Source: Clostridiales bacterium
GTDB lineage: Bacteria > Bacillota > Clostridia > Christensenellales > Aristaeellaceae
Direction: 5' to 3'
NCBI GenBank assembly: GCA_015056085.1
Contig: SVHA01000002.1
Coordinates: forward strand, 1-64,000
DNA length: 64,000 nucleotides
The translations under genes were made by a program, and so were the position numbers. The notes under the pieces are model-generated. The model was not told the DNA's origin. It saw nothing but the letters and a program-made list of their open reading frames with translations, and searched no databases. Position 1 is the stretch's first letter; each line of letters starts with the position of its first letter. Below are positions 50,336 through 64,000 of this stretch, piece after piece.

Positions 50336-50499
50336 TCGGATTCACCTCCTCGGGGCTATTCTGCACAGGCGGCTGTTTTTGTAACACATGAAAAATTTGA
50401 AAAATTCTCTATGCAGAAAGGGAAAATCAAGGTATAATAGGGTGAATGAGTCTGTGCGGAGAGAAGTTGCCCGCGCAGCCGGGAAAGGAGCGGGAAGCG

Positions 50500-51183
50500 T
50501 TGGCGACCTGGCTTACACAGTTGCTTTCGATGGTGTCTGCGGGCGCAATGCTCGTGAGCACTTCTCTTGATACCCTTGCGCCCCAGCACAATCAGAAGGG
50601 ACTGCTGTTTCTGATCAACCGCCAGTGGCGTGTCAGCGAGACCTTCGAGCCCTCCCTGCGCATGGCGGACGTGCCCGGTCAGCTGCGCCGGATGCGGGAA
50701 GACGCCTCCTATGCGCTGGAAGAGATGTTCGCTGCCTGCAAAATGGAGACTGGCATCAGGCTGGAAACCGTCAGCGGCTACCGCAGCTATCAGAAGCAGG
50801 AAAACATTTACAACAACAAGCTCCGCTCCGTGGGCACCGAGGAAAAGGCCGACGAATATGTGGCCCGCCCCGGCGCCAGCGAGCATCAGATGGGTCTGGC
50901 CATGGACGTGAGCCAGGATTCTGACATGGTTAACCTCACCAGCGCCTTCGGCAGAACCAGAGGCGGCCTCTGGATCAGGGAAAACTGCTGGCGATTCGGT
51001 TTTATCCTGCGCTACGATGAAGGCTGGGAAGACGTGACCGGCTATGAGTACGAGCCGTGGCACGTGCGCTATGTGGGCAAGGAATATGCCGCCCGACTCC
51101 ACGAATCGCCCATGCCGCTGGAAACCTTCCTGATCCTCCACCGCACGGAAACGATGCTGGATCTGCTTGTCCGGGAAAAGTAA
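50500..51183 (+). CDS. VanY-type D-alanyl-D-alanine carboxypeptidase, paralogue 1
   Basis: A 227-residue peptidase of family M15B. The motif SEHQMGLAMDV carries the zinc ligands His and Asp, and EPWHVRYVG the catalytic Glu and third ligand. I choose TTG 50500, nine bases after AAAGGAG; the ATG at 50446 is at the likely transcription start of a TATAAT at 50433-50438. The N-terminus (ATWLTQLLSMVSAGAML) then makes a signal or anchor segment. First of three adjacent homologues. Confidence 0.85.
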   Translation: MATWLTQLLSMVSAGAMLVSTSLDTLAPQHNQKGLLFLINRQWRVSETFEPSLRMADVPGQLRRMREDASYALEEMFAACKMETGIRLETVSGYRSYQKQENIYNNKLRSVGTEEKADEYVARPGASEHQMGLAMDVSQDSDMVNLTSAFGRTRGGLWIRENCWRFGFILRYDEGWEDVTGYEYEPWHVRYVGKEYAARLHESPMPLETFLILHRTETMLDLLVREK

Positions 51184-51219
51184 CGCCAAGGCTTACGACA
51201 TCTTCAGAGGTGTAACATC

Positions 51220-52053
51220 ATGCAAAAGAAGTTCCTGGCACTGCTGATTTGCCTGCTCCTGCTGCCGGTTTCGGCATGGGCGCAGGGAGAATGGAACATT
51301 GACCTGACCGTGCCTGTCAATCCTCATTTGCTGGCGCTGACGGCTCCGGCGGAAACATTGGGGGAAGAGTACGAGCCCCACAACCTCCATCAGATTTCCT
51401 CCAAGCAGCCCGGTGTGAAACTGACGGTCAGCCGGGCGAACCTTTTGTGTGAGGACGCCCTGGACAGCCTCTATGCTATGCTGGCGGACGCCCAGCAGGC
51501 AGGCCTGACCATCTATGTCCGTCAGGCGTATCGCTCCTATGCTGATGAAGCCCGGCGCTATCAGCTCACCGGGGAAGGCCCGGAACCGGGCAAGAGCAGT
51601 TATCAGACGGGATATTCCGTCACGCTGGTGAACGAAACCTACAAGAAGGGCGACATCGGCGCTGATTTTGCCCAGTCCCCTGAAGGCGTGTGGCTGATGG
51701 ACAACTGCCACCTCTACGGATTCATCCTGCGGTATCCCGCTGGAAGGGAAGAGGTCACTGGTCACGCTTGTGAGCCCTGGCACTTCCGCTATGTGGGCAA
51801 GGACATCGCCGCTGCCCTGAAGGAAAATGGCCTGAGTCTGGAAGATTTCCGCCTTGCGTATGATGCTGCGGAGCAGGTGGGCGTCTATGTGGATCCTGAC
51901 GCCACACCCACGCCGCCGCCTACGCCTACGCCGGCGCCGACCCCCACGCCCACGCCCCTGCCGGAAGGCGTCATCCTGCTGGAAGAAACGGGCGCTGACG
52001 GCGACTTTGAGTTTGACTTTGATTATTTTCTGCCCCTGACCCCGGCTCCCTGA
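51220..52053 (+). CDS. VanY-like protein with degenerate active site, paralogue 2
   Basis: A 277-residue secreted member of the M15B family with signal peptide (1-21, ending AWA). The fold is kept: YVRQAYRSY, GVWLMDNCHLYGFILRY and CEPWHFRYVG (Glu185, His188). The first zinc motif is lost: SSYQTGYSVTL replaces S-x-H-x-x-G-x-A-x-D, with Tyr128 for His and Thr135 for Asp. A Thr/Pro-repeat linker (229-248) and an acidic tail end the protein. Likely noncatalytic, perhaps a peptidoglycan-binding or regulatory partner. Confidence 0.85.
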   Translation: MQKKFLALLICLLLLPVSAWAQGEWNIDLTVPVNPHLLALTAPAETLGEEYEPHNLHQISSKQPGVKLTVSRANLLCEDALDSLYAMLADAQQAGLTIYVRQAYRSYADEARRYQLTGEGPEPGKSSYQTGYSVTLVNETYKKGDIGADFAQSPEGVWLMDNCHLYGFILRYPAGREEVTGHACEPWHFRYVGKDIAAALKENGLSLEDFRLAYDAAEQVGVYVDPDATPTPPPTPTPAPTPTPTPLPEGVILLEETGADGDFEFDFDYFLPLTPAP

Positions 52054-52077
52054 CCGGCGGGGCAAGGAGGGACCTGC

Positions 52078-52938
52078 ATGAATGGATGGAAGCGGGCGCT
52101 GGCTCTGGTGCTGGCGCTGATGACATGGATGCCGCTGACGGTCGCTATGGCGGACGACGACGTGGAAATCAGCTTTGAGGACACCTCGGGCATCATTCTG
52201 GAAGAAAACGTCTACGACAACGTGGTATGGAACTTCCCGGTGGATTTGTCCGACATGGATCCGGAACTGGTGCGCCTGGCTAACAAGAAAGTGCTGCTGC
52301 CGGAGGACTTCATTCCCGACCCGCTGGTGACCATGAAAGCCCGCAAGGAGGACTCCGAGGGCAACAACACAAACGGCGGCGTGAAGAAGGTTTCCAGCGA
52401 CGAAATGAAACTGCAGGAAGAATGCGCCCAGCATCTGGTGGAAATGTTCGACACCGCGCTGGAAGAGGGCATCACCCTGTACCTGAAATCTGCCTATCGC
52501 AGCTATCGTACCCAGAAGACCATGTATTACAACCGCCTGGAAAATAACAACGGCGTGGATGACGGATGGGTAGCCATGCCCGGCTCCAGCGATCATCAGA
52601 CGGGCCTGGGCTGCGACGTGGTGCCCCGTGCCTGGCGGGAACGCCCTATGAACGGCGACATGGGCAAGGAAAAAGAGTGCATCTGGATGGCGGAAAACTG
52701 CCACCGATTCGGCTTCATCCTGCGCTACCCTGAAGACAAGCAGGATGTGACGGAAATCAACTACGAGCCCTGGCATATGCGCTATGTGGGCGTTCCCGTG
52801 GCCACCTACATCATGGAAAACGGCCTGTGCCTGGAGGAATTCCAGGATCAGCTGCAGGCGGCCATCGCAGAATTTCTGCAAAATGGCGGCCGCCGCTCCC
52901 TGGTGGAGGATTACATCATCAAAACGGATGCCGACTGA
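52078..52938 (+). CDS. VanY-type D,D-carboxypeptidase, paralogue 3
   Basis: A 286-residue secreted M15B peptidase. Signal peptide ends VAMA (about 25). The motif SSDHQTGLGCDV and EPWHMRYVG are intact, so zinc and catalytic residues are all present; SAYRSYRTQ is the usual preceding loop. AAGGAGG precedes the ATG. These enzymes trim the terminal D-Ala of wall pentapeptides. Confidence 0.9.
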   Translation: MNGWKRALALVLALMTWMPLTVAMADDDVEISFEDTSGIILEENVYDNVVWNFPVDLSDMDPELVRLANKKVLLPEDFIPDPLVTMKARKEDSEGNNTNGGVKKVSSDEMKLQEECAQHLVEMFDTALEEGITLYLKSAYRSYRTQKTMYYNRLENNNGVDDGWVAMPGSSDHQTGLGCDVVPRAWRERPMNGDMGKEKECIWMAENCHRFGFILRYPEDKQDVTEINYEPWHMRYVGVPVATYIMENGLCLEEFQDQLQAAIAEFLQNGGRRSLVEDYIIKTDAD

Positions 52939-54348: not shown

Positions 54349-54421
<73 letters not shown>

Positions 54422-54733: not shown

Positions 54734-54768
54734 TTGACACAAAAATTGATGCATGGTACAATTGTACC
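54734..54768 (+). promoter_or_regulatory. Opp operon promoter with overlapping palindromic operator candidate
   Basis: TTGACA (54734-54739), 17 bp, TACAAT (54757-54762). The -10 lies inside the perfect 14-base palindrome GGTACAATTGTACC (54755-54768), a likely repressor site. The leader to the start is about 95 bases. Confidence 0.75.
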
Positions 54769-54862: not shown

Positions 54863-57382
54863 ATGAGCAAGACCCTGAAGACCGTTGTCGCGTTTGTGCT
54901 GTGCCTGGCGATGTGCGCTTCTCTGTTCACCGCTTCCGCTGAACAGTATGTGCCCAAGCAGGCTGAGTATAACACGACTACCTCCGTGATGCCCAGCAAC
55001 TGGAACGAATTCACCTATGCGGACAACAATGACACTCAGATCATGAGCTACATTGGCTCCGCCTTCTTCGAGTATGACTACAAGTTCGAAGATGACAAGA
55101 AGTTCAACGACGACGGCTCCATCAACAAGGACGGCATCGTGGAAGGTGCTTACACCACCAACTACTCCGCTGCCACCAAGCTGGAAGACGTCACTGCTAC
55201 CGTCGACGCCAAGTGGGGCTACACCGACAAGCAGAAGGAAGAGGGCGGCTACGCCTGGAAGATCACCCTGCGTGACGACCTGAAGTGGGACGATGGCACC
55301 GCCATCACCGCAGAAGACTTCGTGTACTCCATGAAGGAACTGCTGGATCCTGCCTTCATGAACTTCCGTGCCAACACCTACTATGACACGCTGAAGATCA
55401 AGAACTCCAAGAGCTACTTCTTCAAGAACCAGGAAGGCACCTATGAGACCCTCGGTGCTCTGGGCTATGCCTCTGTGCAGGCTGCTCTGGATGCCGGCGA
55501 GACCGTCTACTGCAACATCTGGAACATGTGGGGCACCAAGGGCTACACCGATGCCAATGGCAACGAGTGCCCTGAGTACGTCACCGTGACCGATGAAACC
55601 GTCTACAGCAGCGCTGATGGTTCCGACTCCGCTTCTGGCGCTTTCCTGCTCAAGAACTACGGCGCCTACCTCGAGCCCGGTGCTGGCTACGACGCCACCA
55701 TCTACGTTGAGAACACCAACCGCGACATCGACTTCGAAGACGTTGGTATCTATGCCATCGCCGACGAGAATGCCGTCGTGGTCTGCCTGGACGTTGCCTA
55801 CGACTTCCTGAAGGAAGACGGCAGCCTGTCCGTGTGGGCTCCCTACTACTTCTCCAGCCTGCCCCTGGTCAAGAAGGATCTGTACGAGTCCTGCAAGATC
55901 GCTCCCGCTGCTGGCGCGACCCTGTGGACCTCCAACTACAACTCCTCTCTGGCTACCACTGCCAGCTGGGGTCCCTACAAGCTGGCCGAGTTCGAAGCCG
56001 GTTCCCACTACAAGCTCGTGAAGAACGAGAACTGGTACGGCTGGAACCTGGAACAGTACAAGAACCAGTACAACATCACCGCCATCAACTGCCGCAAGGT
56101 TGAAGAGTTCTCCACCAAGTGGATGGGCTTCCTGAACGGCACCTACGACGACGCTTCTCTGCAGACTGAAAACGTCGCCGAGTACCTGGATTCCAAGTAC
56201 GTCTACTTCACCTCCACCTCCACCGGCACCTTCGGCATGCAGCTGTTCTCTGACCTGTCTGTCCTGAAGGAGAGCGAGAACAACAACGGCATCCTGGCTA
56301 TCCAGGAATTCCGTCACGCTTTCAACCTGGCTCTGAATCGTAGCGACATCGTTGAGAAGATCTGGCCCGGCTCCGCTGTGCCCTGCTTCGGTCTGCTGAA
56401 CGTTGCTTACTACTATGACATCGAGAACTCTCCCGACCTGGAAGACGGTGGTCAGTATCGTAACACCACCACTGCCAAGGAAGGCATCCTGCGCGCCTAC
56501 GGCTACACCCAGGATGAAGACGGCCTCTGGACCTCCGGCGACCTGACCGGCCTGGATACCGAAGAAGCCTACGAGACCCTGACTGGCTACAACCCCGTGG
56601 TTGCCAAGGAAAAGATGAAGGATGCTATCGCTATCCTGCTGGCTGATCCTGAGTACTACGGCTACGACGCCACCAAGAACATCACCCTGGTGTATGGTTC
56701 TTCCTCCGACACCGACAAGCAGCGCTTCCGCGCCAGCTATCTGCAGGACGTCCTGGACGACCTGACTGCCGGCACCGAACTGGAAGACAAGATCGACGTT
56801 GTGTTTGACGCTTCCGCTGGCGCTCAGTGGGCTGAAGCTTTCCGTTCCGGCGACACCCAGATCGGCTTCGGCTATGGCTTCTCCGGCAACGCCTTCAACC
56901 CCTTCGACATCATCGGCGCCTTCGTCAACCCCGACGACGACCTGAACTACCATATGTACTGGGATACCTCCGCTATCCCCATGACCATGACCATGCCCGA
57001 GGGCGACTACGATGGCGCTGGTGAAGAAATCACCATGTCCGTCCAGAACTGGTTCTACTGCCTGAACAACCTGGCCGAGTCTGAGAATCAGCCCGTGGTC
57101 TACAACTGGGGCGCTGGCGATGCTCCCGTGGAAGTTCGCCTGATGATCCTGTCCGCTCTGGAAGAACTGACCATCAAGGAATCCCGTTCTGTCATGCTGA
57201 TCGCTGACGGCGGCGGATCCTTCCTGGGCGCCAAGTTCGCTTACTTCTCCGAAGATGAGCACACCTTCATGGGCTTCGGTGGCATGCGTTACATGGAAGT
57301 CGTTTACACCGACGCCGAGTGGGCTGATTTCGTCGCTGCCAACAACAACGACCTGTCCGCCGAGTACAAGAAGGCTGAGTAA
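54863..57382 (+). CDS. oppA: Oversized oligopeptide-type ABC transporter binding protein (SBP family 5)
   Basis: An 839-residue exported protein, against a usual 520-600 for the family. The signal peptide ends FTASA (about 26) with no proper lipobox. Family-5 traits are WKITLRDDLKWDDGTAITAEDFVYS and REFRHAFNLALNRSDIVEKIWPGS-like segments. A long insert (about 180-340) is rich in Tyr, Asp and Gly. AAAGGAG precedes ATG 54863. First gene of a five-gene operon; codon use is strongly biased, fitting high expression. Confidence 0.88.
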   Translation: MSKTLKTVVAFVLCLAMCASLFTASAEQYVPKQAEYNTTTSVMPSNWNEFTYADNNDTQIMSYIGSAFFEYDYKFEDDKKFNDDGSINKDGIVEGAYTTNYSAATKLEDVTATVDAKWGYTDKQKEEGGYAWKITLRDDLKWDDGTAITAEDFVYSMKELLDPAFMNFRANTYYDTLKIKNSKSYFFKNQEGTYETLGALGYASVQAALDAGETVYCNIWNMWGTKGYTDANGNECPEYVTVTDETVYSSADGSDSASGAFLLKNYGAYLEPGAGYDATIYVENTNRDIDFEDVGIYAIADENAVVVCLDVAYDFLKEDGSLSVWAPYYFSSLPLVKKDLYESCKIAPAAGATLWTSNYNSSLATTASWGPYKLAEFEAGSHYKLVKNENWYGWNLEQYKNQYNITAINCRKVEEFSTKWMGFLNGTYDDASLQTENVAEYLDSKYVYFTSTSTGTFGMQLFSDLSVLKESENNNGILAIQEFRHAFNLALNRSDIVEKIWPGSAVPCFGLLNVAYYYDIENSPDLEDGGQYRNTTTAKEGILRAYGYTQDEDGLWTSGDLTGLDTEEAYETLTGYNPVVAKEKMKDAIAILLADPEYYGYDATKNITLVYGSSSDTDKQRFRASYLQDVLDDLTAGTELEDKIDVVFDASAGAQWAEAFRSGDTQIGFGYGFSGNAFNPFDIIGAFVNPDDDLNYHMYWDTSAIPMTMTMPEGDYDGAGEEITMSVQNWFYCLNNLAESENQPVVYNWGAGDAPVEVRLMILSALEELTIKESRSVMLIADGGGSFLGAKFAYFSEDEHTFMGFGGMRYMEVVYTDAEWADFVAANNNDLSAEYKKAE

Positions 57383-57683
57383 TTCTTGATCCAATAGTTA
57401 CTTGGATTAAACGGTCACAAAGGGCGGTGGGCCTCTGGCTCACCGCCTGTTTGTGACAAATGGATTGCCATATCCTAATGCTTCCAAAAGTAGCAGTAAA
57501 AACTGGACTGTTACGAAGATGATCAATCCAAGCGACCGGTTTCATGGGCTGCATCAGCAGCTGTTTGGATGACTTTTTGAGTATCAGGCGATGGTGCCGC
57601 GAAAACCCCGCTGCGCCTGCAATCAGCTGCTTTCATGCTCAGACACTGTGAAGTGAGAAAAACTAAGCAGAGGAGAAAAACCT
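57383..57683. other. Long gap between oppA and oppB with attenuator-like hairpin
   Basis: GGCGGTG (57423-57429) pairs with CACCGCC (57441-57447), followed by TGTTTGTG. It probably stabilises the oppA message or partly ends transcription, common after binding-protein genes. The rest to 57683 contains no recognised feature. Confidence 0.55.
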
Positions 57684-58691
57684 ATGTATATGTTTAAATA
57701 CGTGTCGAAGCGCTTGGGTTTGATGTTGCTGACATTCAGCATCATCTTTACGATGTGCTTTGTACTGATCAAGCTTCTGCCCATCCCCACCACGGCGCTT
57801 CCCGGCCAGGATCAGGAAGTCGTGATGAAGACCCTGGAGGGTCGTGGTTGGATTACCAACATCAAGGAAGGTTCCAACGGCGTTTGGAGCTACGACCGTG
57901 TGCCGATCATGCTGCAGTTCGGCAATTACCTCTCGAGAATCTTCACCAAGGGCGATTTCGGCATCGCCACTACCTACGGTGAGTATCTCAACATGGATCT
58001 GTGGGAGGTCTTCGTCAATCATCTGCCGCCCACCATCCTCATCAACATCTATTCCACGCTGATCGGTGTGCCGATCGGCCTTGCTCTGGGCATCATTGCC
58101 GCTCTGAAGAAGAACAAGTGGCAGGACCAGGTCATCAACATCATCATTATTTTGCTCATTTCCTTCCCTTCGATTGTTCTTGCACTGCTGATTCAGTATG
58201 TGTTCTGCTTTAAATTGGGCTGGTTCCCGCTGACAATGTCGGTCAGCAATGAATATTTCACCTGGCCCGTCTTCCGCTCCATGCTGCCCGCTGTGTTCGC
58301 CCTGTGTCTGGGCTCCATCGCCGGCTATGCCCGTTATACCCGTGCAGAGCTGTCCGAGGTCCTCACCGGCGAGTTTATGCTGCTGGCACGCACCAAGGGC
58401 CTGACCAAGCGGCAGGCGATTTATCGTCATGCCATGCGTAACTCCATGGTTGTCATTTTCCCCTCCATTCTGTCTGAGTTCGTCTCCGTGCTCTCCGGCT
58501 CTCTGATCATTGAAAAAATGTTCGGCATCAACGGCGTGGGCGGTCTGTACCTGAACTCCATCACCTTCCAGGATTATGACTTCTTCATGTTGCTGTCTGG
58601 CTTTTACACCCTGGTCAGCCTGACCGCCGGTATCGTCATCGATATCAGCTATGGCTTCATTGACCCGAGAATCAGAATGGGAGCGAAGTAA
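57684..58691 (+). CDS. oppB: Peptide ABC transporter permease, OppB/DppB type
   Basis: A 335-residue permease with six helices, starting MYMFKYVSKRLGLMLLTFSI. The EAA loop LLARTKGLTKRQAIYRHAMRNSM is typical. Length is near normal (305-340), with a modest loop insert after helix 1. AGAGGAG precedes the ATG. Confidence 0.92.
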   Translation: MYMFKYVSKRLGLMLLTFSIIFTMCFVLIKLLPIPTTALPGQDQEVVMKTLEGRGWITNIKEGSNGVWSYDRVPIMLQFGNYLSRIFTKGDFGIATTYGEYLNMDLWEVFVNHLPPTILINIYSTLIGVPIGLALGIIAALKKNKWQDQVINIIIILLISFPSIVLALLIQYVFCFKLGWFPLTMSVSNEYFTWPVFRSMLPAVFALCLGSIAGYARYTRAELSEVLTGEFMLLARTKGLTKRQAIYRHAMRNSMVVIFPSILSEFVSVLSGSLIIEKMFGINGVGGLYLNSITFQDYDFFMLLSGFYTLVSLTAGIVIDISYGFIDPRIRMGAK

Positions 58692-58693
58692 TT

Positions 58694-60274
58694 ATGGAAA
58701 ATAATACGCGTAATATTCCCATTGAGAAATTCAAATTTGCCCATCGGAACGACTTGCTGCATGACAGCAAGTTTGAAACCAAGCCCGTCAGTTATTTCCA
58801 GGGCGCCTTCAAGCGCTTCAGCAAGAACAAGGGCGCTGTGGTGGGCGGCGTGGTCATCGCTGTGCTGGTGCTGTTCGCTATTCTCGCTCCCTTCTTCACG
58901 CCCTTCCGTCCTGCCTACTACGACATGGTGTATGCCTATGTCTATCCCAAGCTGGACGTCTTCGCCGAGAACGACATTCCTTTCTGGGATGGCTGCAAGA
59001 CGAAGAGCACCAACAAGATTGGGTACCTCAAGGACGTGGCCCTGGCCGCTGAAACCGGCCGTGAGGTCATCAAAAACAACGAGGTTGAAATCAGCGAGGA
59101 CGGCTCTGTCTACACGTACCGCTACGACACCTACTACGGTGTGGGCTTTGGTAAGTACAAGACCATCTCCCTGCAGGAATTCCAGGATATCCAGGAGTAT
59201 CAGCTCCGCACGGGGCGTCAGGTGCTCTATCCCGTGGTGAAGTTCTCTGAACGTCCTACCATGGAAAAGAACAAGTACGACGCCAACATCTACTACGAGG
59301 TCAAAAACAAGAAGAAGTCCACGCTGGAGCCCAAGCTGGACGATGAAGGCAACATCATCCCCAACTACTGGAGATATGAAGACGGCAAGGCCAGCTCCAC
59401 CATTCCTGAGTACAACTCCCTGCGCATTGAAGGCGAGGATGGCATCCAGGAAGACGGCAAGACGTACTACTACGCCTATGGCCGCAAGGTGGACGGCGGC
59501 GTGGAAGTCCGTGCTGAGTATTACGAATACTACACCTATCAGCACACCGAAGTGAAGAAGGACGGCATCGCCGAGCCCAGCTTCATCTTCGGCACCACCC
59601 AGACCGGTAAGGACATCTTTGCCTGCCTGGCCTACGGCGCACGCTTCTCCTTCGTCTTTGCAACGATCGTTGCGCTGGCTAACTTCATTGTCGGCGTCAT
59701 CTGGGGTTCCATCTCCGGCTATTGCGGCGGCAAGATCGACCTGTGCATGGAGCGCTTCGCTGAAATTCTCGGCTCCGTGCCCAGCATGATCGTCATCACC
59801 CTGTTGAAGTACCACATGGGCGCCACCAGTCAGACGCTGGTGCTGTTCATAGCGTTCTTCGCAACGGGCTGGATTGGCATGGCCGGCAGAACCCGTATGC
59901 AGTTCTACCGCTTCAAGAACCAGGAATATGTGCTGGCTGCACGGACGCTGGGCGCCCGCGACTCCCGCATCATGTTCAAGCACATCCTGCCCAATGGCCT
60001 GGGCACCATCGTTACCAGCGTGGCACTGGTCATCCCCTCGATGATCTACTCCGAAACCAGCCTGTCTTATCTGGGTATCATCAATCTGGAAGCCGGCGAC
60101 ACCACTTCTGTGGGTACCCTGATTGCGGCTGGCCAACAGTCCATCATGGCTGATGCAGCCTATGTTGCGCTGTTCCCCTGCCTGTTCCTGATTCTTTTGA
60201 TGCTTAGCTTCAACCTGTTCGGTAACGGATTGCGCGACGCATTCAATCCTTCTCTGAGAGGAACGGAGGATTAA
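58694..60274 (+). CDS. oppC: Peptide ABC transporter permease OppC type with about 220-residue extracytoplasmic insertion
   Basis: A 526-residue permease, against about 290-310 for ordinary OppC. The N-terminal cytoplasmic stretch and helix 1 (about 47-68) are normal. The usual short loop to FGTDxxGRD-I is replaced by residues about 72-298, rich in Tyr, Lys, Asp and Glu, before FGTTQTGKDIF (299). The last 228 residues are a standard permease core with EYVLAARTLGARDSRIMFKHILPN. Starts two bases after oppB. Confidence 0.9.
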   Translation: MENNTRNIPIEKFKFAHRNDLLHDSKFETKPVSYFQGAFKRFSKNKGAVVGGVVIAVLVLFAILAPFFTPFRPAYYDMVYAYVYPKLDVFAENDIPFWDGCKTKSTNKIGYLKDVALAAETGREVIKNNEVEISEDGSVYTYRYDTYYGVGFGKYKTISLQEFQDIQEYQLRTGRQVLYPVVKFSERPTMEKNKYDANIYYEVKNKKKSTLEPKLDDEGNIIPNYWRYEDGKASSTIPEYNSLRIEGEDGIQEDGKTYYYAYGRKVDGGVEVRAEYYEYYTYQHTEVKKDGIAEPSFIFGTTQTGKDIFACLAYGARFSFVFATIVALANFIVGVIWGSISGYCGGKIDLCMERFAEILGSVPSMIVITLLKYHMGATSQTLVLFIAFFATGWIGMAGRTRMQFYRFKNQEYVLAARTLGARDSRIMFKHILPNGLGTIVTSVALVIPSMIYSETSLSYLGIINLEAGDTTSVGTLIAAGQQSIMADAAYVALFPCLFLILLMLSFNLFGNGLRDAFNPSLRGTED

Positions 60275-60276
60275 GC

Positions 60277-62508
60277 ATGAATAAAGAGATTAAACTTTCC
60301 GTCAACGATCTGAAGGTTTCCTTCCGCACGGACGCCGGCAAGGTGCAGGCTGTGCGCAACATCTCCTTCGATCTGTATAAGGGCGAGACCCTGGCCATCG
60401 TCGGCGAGTCCGGCTCCGGCAAGTCTGTCACCTCCAAGGCCATCATGGGCATTTCCGCCGGCAACTCCATCTACGAGGGCGGCGAAATCCTCTACGACGG
60501 CCAGGACCTGACCCGTATCCCTGAGGAAGAGATGCACAAGTTGCGTGGCGACAAAATCGCCATGATCTTCCAGGATCCCCTGTCTTCCCTCAACCCCATC
60601 ATGCGCATCGGCAAGCAGATCACCGAAGCCATGCTGCTCAAGAACAAGGCCAACCGCAAGGAAGGCCGCACCACCTTCAACAAGACCCTGGCACTGCTGT
60701 CCGAGACGATCAAGAAGGCCCTGGCGGCCAATCCGCAGTCCGGTGTGACCAATGCGGATGTGGACAAGTACATCAAGACCTTTGATGACTTCAACATCCA
60801 GGCCATCAAGCTGGAAAACAGCTACAATGCCGCCCGCACTGCTGCTGAAGAAATGATCGCCGCCATTGAAGACCTGCTCTTCATGACGGAAAAGAAGCAG
60901 AAGGTCGATACGGTGGCTTCCCTGGACCTGATCAAGAACAGGCTCAAGGTCATCAACGACAAGTACTTCACCTCCGGCCAGGAGGACGTCCTCAAGGCAC
61001 ACGTTGCCGCTGTGGATGCCGTGGCCCGTGAAGAGCGCTCCAAGGTCACTGCGCTTGACTTCGTCAAGAAGGTGGCTGGCGCCGGCGGATACAGGAAGGA
61101 AGCATCTCCCGAGACGGTTGACGCCATGAAGGAACTGGAAAAGACTGCCCAGGAACTGCTGGCCCGTCCCCAGTACAACTTCTTCCGCATCGGCTACTAT
61201 GTGATGAAGCATCCTGCTGAAGACCTGAGCCAGATGCCCGCTGAAGAAGCCAACGAAATGGCCCTGAAGTTCCTCAAGGAAGACTTCATTGATTCCTTCA
61301 TGGAGCTTGTCAAGCTGGCGGTGCAGTTCTCCTTTGACAAGACCAACGAGAACAAGAAGGTCGCAATCCGTGAACTGGAAAGCGCCATCCAGTTCTTCAA
61401 GGCTGGCAATTTCACCGCTCAGGACGCCGAAAAGCACAGCAAGCACATCATTTCCTGCGTGAGCGCTGCCATCGATCCTCTGGCTATTGTCAAGGATAAC
61501 GTGGCCTACACCTTCGGCAGCACGCTGGAAAACGCCGTGGACAAGTACTTCTTCTACATCAAGAATAACCCCAAGGAAGAAGCCCGTTTTGCCCGTCAGA
61601 CGGCACAGCGCGAGAAGCTGCTGGCCCGGGGCAAGAAGGTGGAGTGGAAGATCGTTCCCAAGTCCGTCATCGCTCCCGAGGTGCAGATTGAGGCCATCGC
61701 CTCCATCATGACCCGTGTGAAGACCAAGTTCGAGGCCGATATCGCTGCGGCTGGCAAGTTCGATGCCGATCAGCGCTGCCTGGACATCATCGACTTCCTC
61801 AAGGAAAAGGCTTCCCAGATCGTTTATACCCTCACCAAGCGGATCGCCAAGGAAAAGGCCATCAAGCTCATGGAAGAGGTGGGCATCCCCGAGGCCCGCA
61901 TCCGTTACCGGCAGTATCCCTTCGAGTTCTCCGGCGGTATGCGTCAGCGCATCGTGATCGCCATCGCTCTGTCTGCCAACCCTGACGTGCTCATCTGCGA
62001 CGAGCCCACCACGGCTCTGGACGTGACCATTCAGGCCCAGATTCTGGAACTGATCAACCGTCTGAAGAAGGAGCGCAACCTCTCCATCATTTTCATCACC
62101 CATGACCTGGGCGTGGTGGCCAACATGGCTGACCGCATCGCTGTGATGTACGCCGGCAAGATCGTGGAATACGGCACGGCTGAAGAGGTCTTCTATGATC
62201 CTCAGCATCCCTACACCTGGGCGCTGCTGTCCTCCATGCCTGACCTGGACACCAACGAGAAGCTGGACGCCATCCCCGGCACGCCTCCCAACATGATCTA
62301 TCCCCCGGTGGGCGACGCCTTTGCCGAGAGAAGCAAGTACGCCATGGAGATCGACTACGAGATGCAGCCGCCCATGTTCGAAGTTTCTCCCACGCATTAC
62401 GCTGCCACCTGGCTGCTCCATCCCAACGCACCCAAGGTGGAAATGCCCAAGATCATCACCGAGCGCATCCGCCGCATGAAAGAAAGGGGGTCCGACCATG
62501 CAGAATAA
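60277..62508 (+). CDS. oppD: Peptide ABC transporter ATPase OppD type with about 390-residue insertion
   Basis: A 743-residue ATPase, more than twice the usual 320-340. Walker A GESGSGKS (43-50) and Q-loop FQDP (98-101) are normal. About 390 predicted helical residues (about 125-515) interrupt the helical subdomain before the normal EEVGIPEARIRYRQYPFEFSGG segment. Signature SGGMRQR starts at 552, Walker B ICDEPTTALD, His switch FITHD, and the C-terminal HPYTWALLSSMP region are intact. GGAGG precedes ATG 60277. Overlaps oppF by 11 bases. Confidence 0.92.
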   Translation: MNKEIKLSVNDLKVSFRTDAGKVQAVRNISFDLYKGETLAIVGESGSGKSVTSKAIMGISAGNSIYEGGEILYDGQDLTRIPEEEMHKLRGDKIAMIFQDPLSSLNPIMRIGKQITEAMLLKNKANRKEGRTTFNKTLALLSETIKKALAANPQSGVTNADVDKYIKTFDDFNIQAIKLENSYNAARTAAEEMIAAIEDLLFMTEKKQKVDTVASLDLIKNRLKVINDKYFTSGQEDVLKAHVAAVDAVAREERSKVTALDFVKKVAGAGGYRKEASPETVDAMKELEKTAQELLARPQYNFFRIGYYVMKHPAEDLSQMPAEEANEMALKFLKEDFIDSFMELVKLAVQFSFDKTNENKKVAIRELESAIQFFKAGNFTAQDAEKHSKHIISCVSAAIDPLAIVKDNVAYTFGSTLENAVDKYFFYIKNNPKEEARFARQTAQREKLLARGKKVEWKIVPKSVIAPEVQIEAIASIMTRVKTKFEADIAAAGKFDADQRCLDIIDFLKEKASQIVYTLTKRIAKEKAIKLMEEVGIPEARIRYRQYPFEFSGGMRQRIVIAIALSANPDVLICDEPTTALDVTIQAQILELINRLKKERNLSIIFITHDLGVVANMADRIAVMYAGKIVEYGTAEEVFYDPQHPYTWALLSSMPDLDTNEKLDAIPGTPPNMIYPPVGDAFAERSKYAMEIDYEMQPPMFEVSPTHYAATWLLHPNAPKVEMPKIITERIRRMKERGSDHAE

Positions 62509-63754
62509 TGAAGTGTTGCTGAAGGTGGACCACCTTTGCCAGTATTTCAAGCTGGGCCGCAAGGACCTCAAGGCCGTGGATGACGTGTGCTTCGAGATCA
62601 AGAAGGGCGAATCCTTCGGTCTGGTGGGCGAATCCGGCTGCGGCAAGACCACCACTGGCCGCTCCATCATCAAGCTCTACAACATTACCTCCGGTAACGT
62701 GTACTTCAAGGGTGAAAGAGTCGGCGCCGGCATCCGCTCCTATCAGGACGCCATCCGCAAGGCCCGCACCGAAGCCTCTGAGAAGATCAAGGCGCTCCGT
62801 GCCGAGGCTGCTGCCGATGAATCCCGCAAGGCTGAAATTCAGGACGAGATCAAGCAGATCAATGCCAATCTTCACGCCGTTGTGGAAGAGAATCGTGCCC
62901 TGATCCGTGGCGCCAAGTCCAACACCAAGGACGTGGACAAGCGGTATGTGGGCACCCTGCTCAAGGCGCTGGAAGCGGAGTATGCCGAGAAGTTCGACAA
63001 TGCCGCCAACAACCCCGATGAACTGGCTGCCCTGAAGAAGGAATACAAAAACCGCTGCCGTGTGGCCAAGAAGAGCAAGCTCATCACCCAGATTCAGATG
63101 ATCTTCCAGGACCCCATCGCTTCTCTTGACCCCCGTATGACCGTCCGTGACATCATTGCGGAAGGTCTGGTGATCAAGGGCATTACCGATCAGGCGTACA
63201 TCAACGAGAAGGTCTACGAGATTCTGGAAATGGTCGGCCTGGTGCGTGAGCACGCAGACCGCTATCCCCATGAGTTCTCCGGCGGCCAGCGTCAGCGCAT
63301 CGGCATCGCCCGTGCTGTCATCATGGAGCCCGAGATGATCATCGCCGACGAGCCCGTTTCCGCACTGGACGTGTCCATTCAGGCGCAGGTTATCAACCTG
63401 CTCAACGACCTGCGGGAACGCCTGGGCCTGACCATCCTGTTCATCGCTCACGATCTGTCTGTCGTCAAGTACTTCTCCGACCGCATTGGCGTGATGTACT
63501 TCGGCAAGATGGTGGAACTGGCGGATTCTGACGAGCTGTTCAAGAATCCCCTGCATCCCTACACCAAGTCCCTGCTGTCTGCTATTCCTCTGCCCGACCC
63601 GGTGTACGAGAAGCAGCGCACGAGAATCATCTACAACCCCATTGCGGAGCATGACTACTCCGTGGACGCTCCCTCCTTCCGTGAGGTGGCCCCGGGCCAT
63701 TTCGTGCAGTGCAACGATGCTGAAGAAGCAAAGTATAAGCAGCAGCTCAAGTAA
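62498..63754 (+). CDS. oppF: Peptide ABC transporter ATPase OppF type with coiled-coil insertion
   Basis: A 418-residue ATPase against about 310-330 in typical OppF. Walker A GESGCGKTT (44-52) and Q-loop FQDP (203-206) are separated by an extra stretch of about 105 residues (about 80-190) rich in Ala, Glu, Lys and Arg, likely a helical hairpin (KARTEASEKIKALRAEAA). Signature SGGQRQRIGIARAV, IADEPVSALD, and AHDLSVV are intact. AAAGGGG precedes ATG 62498. Confidence 0.92.
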   Translation: MQNNEVLLKVDHLCQYFKLGRKDLKAVDDVCFEIKKGESFGLVGESGCGKTTTGRSIIKLYNITSGNVYFKGERVGAGIRSYQDAIRKARTEASEKIKALRAEAAADESRKAEIQDEIKQINANLHAVVEENRALIRGAKSNTKDVDKRYVGTLLKALEAEYAEKFDNAANNPDELAALKKEYKNRCRVAKKSKLITQIQMIFQDPIASLDPRMTVRDIIAEGLVIKGITDQAYINEKVYEILEMVGLVREHADRYPHEFSGGQRQRIGIARAVIMEPEMIIADEPVSALDVSIQAQVINLLNDLRERLGLTILFIAHDLSVVKYFSDRIGVMYFGKMVELADSDELFKNPLHPYTKSLLSAIPLPDPVYEKQRTRIIYNPIAEHDYSVDAPSFREVAPGHFVQCNDAEEAKYKQQLK

Positions 63755-63772: not shown

Positions 63773-64000
63773 GTGAAAGATACAACAAAAACCAATTTGA
63801 GGAACTATGGCATCTGCGCCTGTATTGAACTGCTGATTGCCTTCCTGGTCGTCTGGTCCAAAGGGTTTTTCGTCCACTCTGCGGCGGTGAACCTGCAGAT
63901 TGCCGCCGATGCGTTCTTTGTCGCAGGCGTCCTGATGACGCTGTTTGCGGGCATGATGTTCGTCAGCGGCGAAGGCGCCCTCATCGGCATCGGATTTGTG
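63773..64000 (+). CDS. Membrane protein, DUF3899-like, N-terminal part (cut by window edge)
   Basis: GTG 63773 opens 76 codons to the window end. Two hydrophobic segments are seen (about 15-32 and 45-68), with the string ADAFFVAGVLMTLFAG and a following GEGALIGIGF, which resemble DUF3899 proteins. They often sit with peptide transporters. Only 18 bases after oppF. Ribosome-binding site is poor. Confidence 0.6.
   Translation, partial: MKDTTKTNLRNYGICACIELLIAFLVVWSKGFFVHSAAVNLQIAADAFFVAGVLMTLFAGMMFVSGEGALIGIGFV

Follow-up and report, generated by a model that had tools for sequence, protein, structure and literature searches.

What kind of transporter is specified when four of the five classical subunits of a peptide importer, a common and well-studied type of ATP-binding cassette (ABC) transporter, are enlarged by added stretches? 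This question is raised by an Opp-type operon in the 64,000-nucleotide stretch analysed here (the window), positions 1 to 64,000 of contig SVHA01000002.1 (C20) in the 2.08-Mb draft genome of a Clostridiales bacterium. The operon represents a real and conserved, if unusual, form of a familiar importer, for whose additions we propose roles. Our reading, with a probability of roughly 0.5, is that it encodes, in six genes, an enlarged type I peptide importer that resembles Opp3 and is specific to its lineage, with inserts in OppC, OppD and OppF and a DUF3899 protein as an additional subunit, acting as outlined below. Its features, in window coordinates, are as follows.

54734..54762, + strand: putative sigma-70-like promoter (TTGACA-17-TACAAT, with TG before the second hexamer), from a consensus scan; weak
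54863..57382, + strand: oppA, substrate-binding protein, 839 amino acids (aa), signal peptide without a lipobox (PF00496, expect value (E) 3.6e-29)
55418..55762, + strand: most variable added OppA stretch, approximately aa 186-300, from alignment with OppA proteins of 577-669 aa; boundaries approximate
57684..58691, + strand: oppB, permease, 335 aa, without a large insert (PF00528, E 9.3e-35; Opp3B below cut-off)
58694..60274, + strand: oppC, permease, 526 aa
58919..59587, + strand: OppC insert, 223 aa, predicted alpha/beta, in the outside loop between the first and second membrane segments (AlphaFold2 block confidence 88-97)
60277..62508, + strand: oppD, ATPase, 743 aa
60664..61845, + strand: OppD insert, 394 aa, predicted all-helical, between the Q-loop and signature (AlphaFold2 block confidence 57-94)
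62498..63754, + strand: oppF, ATPase, 418 aa, overlapping the oppD end (PF00005 and PF08352)
62720..63094, + strand: OppF insert, about 125 aa (net gain of about 105), between Walker A and the Q-loop, perhaps a helical hairpin, from alignments with ordinary Opp ATPases, insert lengths and conserved positions
63773..64000, + strand, ending at C20:64198 beyond the window: sixth gene, DUF3899 membrane protein, 141 aa, GTG start (PF13038; four hydrophobic segments)

By their Pfam and NCBIfam matches, the proteins from OppA to OppF all belong to the Opp/Dpp family: OppA matched PF00496 (family 5 substrate-binding protein) with 102.5 bits, where 32.4 is the cut-off, and PF00528 (BPD_transp_1) in OppB and OppC, PF12911 (OppC_N) in OppC, and PF00005 and PF08352 (oligo_HPY C-terminal region) in both OppD and OppF were above their cut-offs. 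On this sequence evidence, the core is that of an ordinary Opp importer. For the two ATPases, insert limits were set by aligning each with ordinary Opp ATPases encoded in its own genome (367 and 327 aa; 327 and 378 aa). The OppD insert comprises residues 130-523, after the Q-loop (96-100) and before the signature (552-558), and the OppF insert approximately residues 75-199, after Walker A (44-51) and before the Q-loop (201-205); that of OppC (residues 76-298) follows the first membrane segment and precedes FGTTQTGKD. The open reading frames (ORFs) and alignments agreed with a preliminary description of this locus, in which OppA, OppC, OppD and OppF were enlarged at these places with their catalytic motifs intact: Walker A, Q-loop, signature, Walker B and H-loop were all found in both ATPases. 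Its statement that the insertions lie at defined points held for OppC, OppD and OppF, but not for OppA, which has no clean conserved insert and is enlarged mainly by a variable stretch, plus smaller additions elsewhere (alignment). The five genes of the operon were also as described, except that the sixth, from 63773, had been left out.

The enlargement recurred in relatives, for which we used the best 80 of 125 loci encoding an OppD relative in one scan of genome contigs. Counting only ORFs that no contig end truncates, OppD measured 717-749 aa and OppA 815-956 aa; OppC measured 509-641 aa, plus one protein of 770 and an 80-aa fragment, and OppF 367-482 aa, apart from two that were shorter, at 295 and 212 aa. 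With the window included, insert length was 368-403 in 78/78 OppD sequences, 207-243 in 70 of 73 OppC sequences (the others being 340, 470 and one fragment), and 73-126 in 78 of 80 OppF sequences (the others being 48 and the broken 212-aa ORF). The ratio of nonsynonymous to synonymous substitution rates (dN/dS) against eight close relatives was 0.09-0.40 in the added stretches (0.09-0.35 without OppA, the source of the upper values) and 0.01-0.17 in the cores; a few values were uncomputable through saturation, and one relative had no complete OppA. Purifying selection acts on the inserts of OppC, OppD and OppF, which evolve faster than the cores. Conserved motifs were retained in the OppD insert, with fewer invariant positions in those of OppC and OppF. 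The recurrence of the same sizes, and values well below 1 wherever computable, bore out the earlier view that this enlargement is no accident.

The enlarged subunits are inherited together. When OppB was used as a query (E of 1e-50 or lower), 14 of 392 genomes of the class matched, its own genome included; among the 13 others, seven had the whole enlarged set (loci L133-L139) and six did not. These orthologous operons, from other families, carried the enlarged subunits together in 7/7 cases, and profiles built on the inserts of OppD and OppC matched the same 8/392 genomes, with eight family labels (E of 0.001 or lower). A tree was constructed from 54 operons, each concatenated (that of the window, 22 taken from the 80 loci and 31 others, two of which were ordinary operons of the window's own genome), by a quick method without bootstrap, and rooted on seven operons with iron-sulfur (Fe-S) cysteines; some long branches among the ordinary operons were flagged. 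All 30 enlarged operons formed one clade, with a value of 100 in the Shimodaira-Hasegawa-like approximate likelihood ratio test (SH-aLRT), and on the tree the OppD insert required a single change, the long OppC two. The enlarged operon arose once and is patchily distributed. In the survey of co-occurrence called for earlier, the OppD and OppC inserts were therefore not independent inside this lineage, because both profiles matched the same genomes. In three loci (L056, L058 and L084), OppD and OppF were nearer to those of the window than were OppB and OppC (and, in L058, also OppA); this pattern suggests an exchange of outer parts or uneven rates.

The sixth gene matched DUF3899 (PF13038) with 38.1 bits, against a gathering cut-off of 23.4. 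A profile search located a DUF3899 gene just downstream of oppF in all 78 testable loci, starting between -112 and +69 bases from the oppF end in 77 and at +335 in one; of the remaining two, one contig ended too early and one locus had no oppF. The initial gene call had overlooked it in 17 loci, probably through a preference for longer opposite-strand ORFs. DUF3899 was also found in 7/7 of L133-L139 and in the window's own genome (C20:63773-64198). The enlarged operon is inherited as a package with DUF3899. In 299 genomes of the phylum, seven matches were obtained, six of them above the cut-off (own genome included) and one, in G005, below it. In four of the five other above-cut-off genomes, the gene adjoins an Opp operon in a different arrangement, lying upstream of the gene for the binding protein, in divergent orientation, in G183, G253 and G293, and antisense between oppA and oppB in G231. 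In G713, it directly follows an ordinary-sized oppF. Among 162 genomes of the class, all three above the cut-off carry the enlarged operon, and G327 fell below it. Because of this repeated adjacency in different arrangements, which we regard as the best evidence, DUF3899 probably acts with Opp. No paper was found for the term DUF3899 in our literature search.

Structure predictions pointed to folded inserts in OppC and OppD. AlphaFold2 (53 aligned sequences) gave an all-helical OppD insert with helices of up to 55 residues and a predicted local distance difference test (pLDDT) value of at least 80 in 32 of 39 ten-residue blocks (range of 57-94); the OppC insert (50 sequences) was an alpha/beta domain with block pLDDT values of 88-97. 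Both are thus predicted with good confidence to be folded. Disorder and free variation among close relatives, which the preliminary description had named as signs against its reading, were not found for these two inserts within the lineage, and free variation was found for the added OppA stretch. In structure comparisons, the cores of the OppC and OppD models matched E. coli OppC and OppD, and matches were to transporter or ATPase cores throughout, so the comparison bears on the cores. A Pfam scan of the window's three inserts yielded no domain at curated cut-offs; the 20 matches of the OppF insert were all below cut-off and included several coiled-coil families. No convincing match was obtained in the PDB with the profile of either the OppD or the OppC insert (best E values of 0.018, to a designed coiled coil, and 0.12, respectively).

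The binding protein differs from the permease and ATPases in the nature of its addition, and the added OppA stretch was rejected as a conserved insert since it varies among relatives. Its anchoring is also variable. No lipobox cysteine follows the signal peptide (54863-54940) in the OppA of the window. Of 68 OppA sequences scanned over their first 75 residues, 60 have a loose lipobox pattern; the 68 comprise 58 of the window and scanned loci and 10 others, three of them from ordinary-sized operons. Among the eight without it, L137 is a fragment, L015 likely has a lipobox just past the scanned stretch, L058 has an apparent membrane anchor, L087 lacks a lipobox, and the four members of the window group (the window's own OppA and those of L011, L014 and L088) have a signal peptide without one. 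In the window group, the ASA-EQ or VSA-EQ junction reads as a typical signal peptidase I site. The absence of a lipobox as a trait of the whole lineage was rejected, as it is confined to a few sequences; another binding protein of the same genome retains the lipobox-like TTAC. In L137 (7065-9653), OppA is split into two ORFs of 595 and 229 aa, perhaps through a frameshift or assembly error.

How might these parts work together? The transport cycle would be the one already known for Opp. The OppC insert may form a folded domain on the outside that helps to retain the oversized OppA on the translocator in the right orientation. ABC dimers are arranged head-to-tail, with each composite ATP site formed by the Walker A of one subunit and the signature of the other. 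The helical OppD insert would grow out of the helix that follows the Q-loop, and that of OppF from the region before its Q-loop, such that the two may flank the composite site made of the OppF Walker A and the OppD signature and serve as a scaffold or brake on ATPase closure. DUF3899 would be a sixth, membrane-embedded subunit. A bolder form of this scheme is a tentative possibility: a six-subunit importer constituting a new Opp structural subtype, with DUF3899 as an obligate subunit, a helical OppD tower and OppF hairpin forming a cytoplasmic clamp on one ATP site and thereby timing closure of the ATPases, and an OppC docking cup that keeps OppA at the membrane and would allow loss of the lipid anchor in the window's species.

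Several points weigh against the proposed importer. The co-occurrence of the inserts reflects one operon lineage, not many independent events; the coordinated enlargement is one of shared inheritance, and contact between inserts is a proposal. The coordination claimed at the outset was therefore upheld as co-inheritance, not as contact. The idea that the two inserts flank the same ATP site comes from general ABC geometry, and the OppD core itself was modelled with low confidence in places (below 50 for residues 45-63 and 647-724). The added OppA stretch varies freely in length among relatives, and in G221, DUF3899 (above the cut-off) is located away from Opp genes. The covariation of distance matrices across 62 operons, controlled for cores (2000 permutations), gave no signal between the OppC and OppA inserts (partial r of -0.01), and signals appeared for pairs separated by the membrane: the OppD and OppA inserts (0.17; 3/2000 permutations as high), and the OppF insert and OppA core (0.18; 8/2000). 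The OppD and OppF inserts did covary (0.27; 0/2000), which we count as weak. Values for the OppC insert were -0.08 with the OppD insert, -0.03 with the OppF insert and 0.12 (70/2000) with the OppA core. Since signals also arose for opposite-side pairs, distance covariation is not a clean contact test.

The best-surviving alternative, which we consider unlikely, is that the inserts are docking platforms for partners that the operon does not encode, with OppD and OppF binding a peptidase or regulator in the cytoplasm and OppC binding cell-wall or extracellular partners. Large and apparently folded domains that evolve fairly fast yet under constraint and have no recognised relatives would suit interaction modules, and no enzyme family was recognised in them. 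On the other hand, apart from the opp genes and DUF3899, no conserved neighbour was found in 81 gene sets (the 80 loci and the window stretch, with short flanks and crude gene calls); this counts weakly against docking, as a partner gene need not adjoin. The other neighbour families listed were either opposite-strand ORFs over the operon or, in one case, a family in seven loci at scattered distances.

It is unlikely that the additions are largely a non-adaptive growth of tolerated loops, retained once the complex depended on them. OppC length climbs stepwise on the Fe-S-rooted tree (305, 340, 370, 378 and more than 500), and its growth in ordinary-sized relatives precedes the OppD insert; insertions at similar sites occur in other branches in other combinations, and such growth would also agree with the faster evolution of the inserts and the free variation of the OppA stretch. 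However, the near-constant lengths, the conserved motifs of the OppD insert, the well-ordered structures predicted for the OppC and OppD inserts and the retention of the additions in the orthologous operons examined all argue against it.

A further explanation, which we regard as very unlikely, starts from the ATPases of other Opp/Dpp complexes, which are held together by C-terminal [4Fe-4S] domains that the inserts would replace. According to the available part of one report (PMC12136057), DppD and DppF of E. coli each contain a [4Fe-4S] cluster, bound by four C-terminal cysteines and needed for assembly. In contrast, no such cysteines were found in OppD and OppF of the window (by alignment) or in the seven enlarged relatives L133-L139. 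However, operons of ordinary size in the same branch (L145, L166, L167, L169-L171, L174, L176, L177 and L182) also lack them in both ATPases and have no inserts, and on the Fe-S-rooted tree their loss is one change that is older than the inserts. Cluster replacement as the cause of the inserts is unsupported for these two reasons. Lastly, a gene-calling or assembly artefact, even though nearly all sources are draft assemblies, is scarcely credible given the same architecture in many separately assembled genomes and the purifying selection on the inserts.

The surroundings of the operon contain a transfer RNA gene shortly upstream (54349-54421; Rfam tRNA, 76.4 bits), and the promoter scan of the region returned four sites against a mean of 2.2 in shuffled sequence, which is weak evidence. 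Further upstream (50446-52938, + strand), three tandem ORFs (245, 277 and 286 aa) share YRSY and EPWHxRYVG stretches reminiscent of VanY-type D-Ala-D-Ala carboxypeptidases.

A literature search over titles and the beginnings of abstracts found no enlarged operon, inserted domains of this kind, or accessory membrane (sixth) Opp subunit. If the proposed importer is correct, it would show a type I importer rebuilt with extra control of docking and ATP-site closure, and provide the first function for DUF3899. The package of single origin and its ordinary-sized sister operons form a natural comparison set for the role of each part.

Among known systems, E. coli OppBCDF (PDB 8z21) and DppABCDF (8z1v-8z1z) consist of ordinary subunits (OppD of 336 and OppF of 333 residues), and the available part of the Dpp report (PMC12136057) describes no sixth gene, whereas the window operon has DUF3899. 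The nearest permeases are of the Opp3 type: the best NCBIfam matches were Opp3B for OppB (E 1.9e-63) and Opp3C for OppC (E 3.6e-77), although the window's proteins scored far below the curated cut-offs (214.7/480 bits for NF045471 and 259.7/450 bits for NF045475), and neither model exceeds ordinary length (308 and 328 positions). For OppD and OppF, the best matches were the mollicute-type MMSYN1_0167 and MMSYN1_0168, again below the cut-offs (471.2/740 bits for NF043079 and 405/800 bits for NF043078). Insert sites were compared through the relatives in G134 and G453. G134, which passes the MMSYN1_0167 cut-off, resembles the window in having enlarged OppD and OppF without Fe-S cysteines; however, its OppD insert lies between Walker A and the Q-loop and its OppC is ordinary (330 aa), whereas the insert of the window lies between the Q-loop and signature. 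A common insert site with mollicute-type OppD was rejected for this relative. In G134 and G453 (L146 and L185), OppD is 588 aa, OppB 527 aa and OppC about 330 aa; OppF, of 433 aa, has a membrane-like C-terminal extension. OppD-OppF fusions of 663-682 aa were observed in L140, L141, L168, L180, L181 and L195, ordinary operons that include near relatives of the enlarged clade.

G437, G456 and G186 (L142, L143 and L144) share with the window a long OppC (604-612 aa, same outside loop) and long OppF (472-508 aa, between Walker A and the Q-loop), but their OppD is ordinary (330-331 aa) and the Fe-S cysteines are retained; their OppC insert looks like RCC1-type repeats, as judged from one sequence read without a profile match. 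The coordinated enlargement first suggested stood as a fixed set in the window's lineage; other branches combine insertions differently, and OppC appears to have grown first. Insertions recur in varied combinations across branches, and therefore the fixed combination is a trait of the window's lineage.

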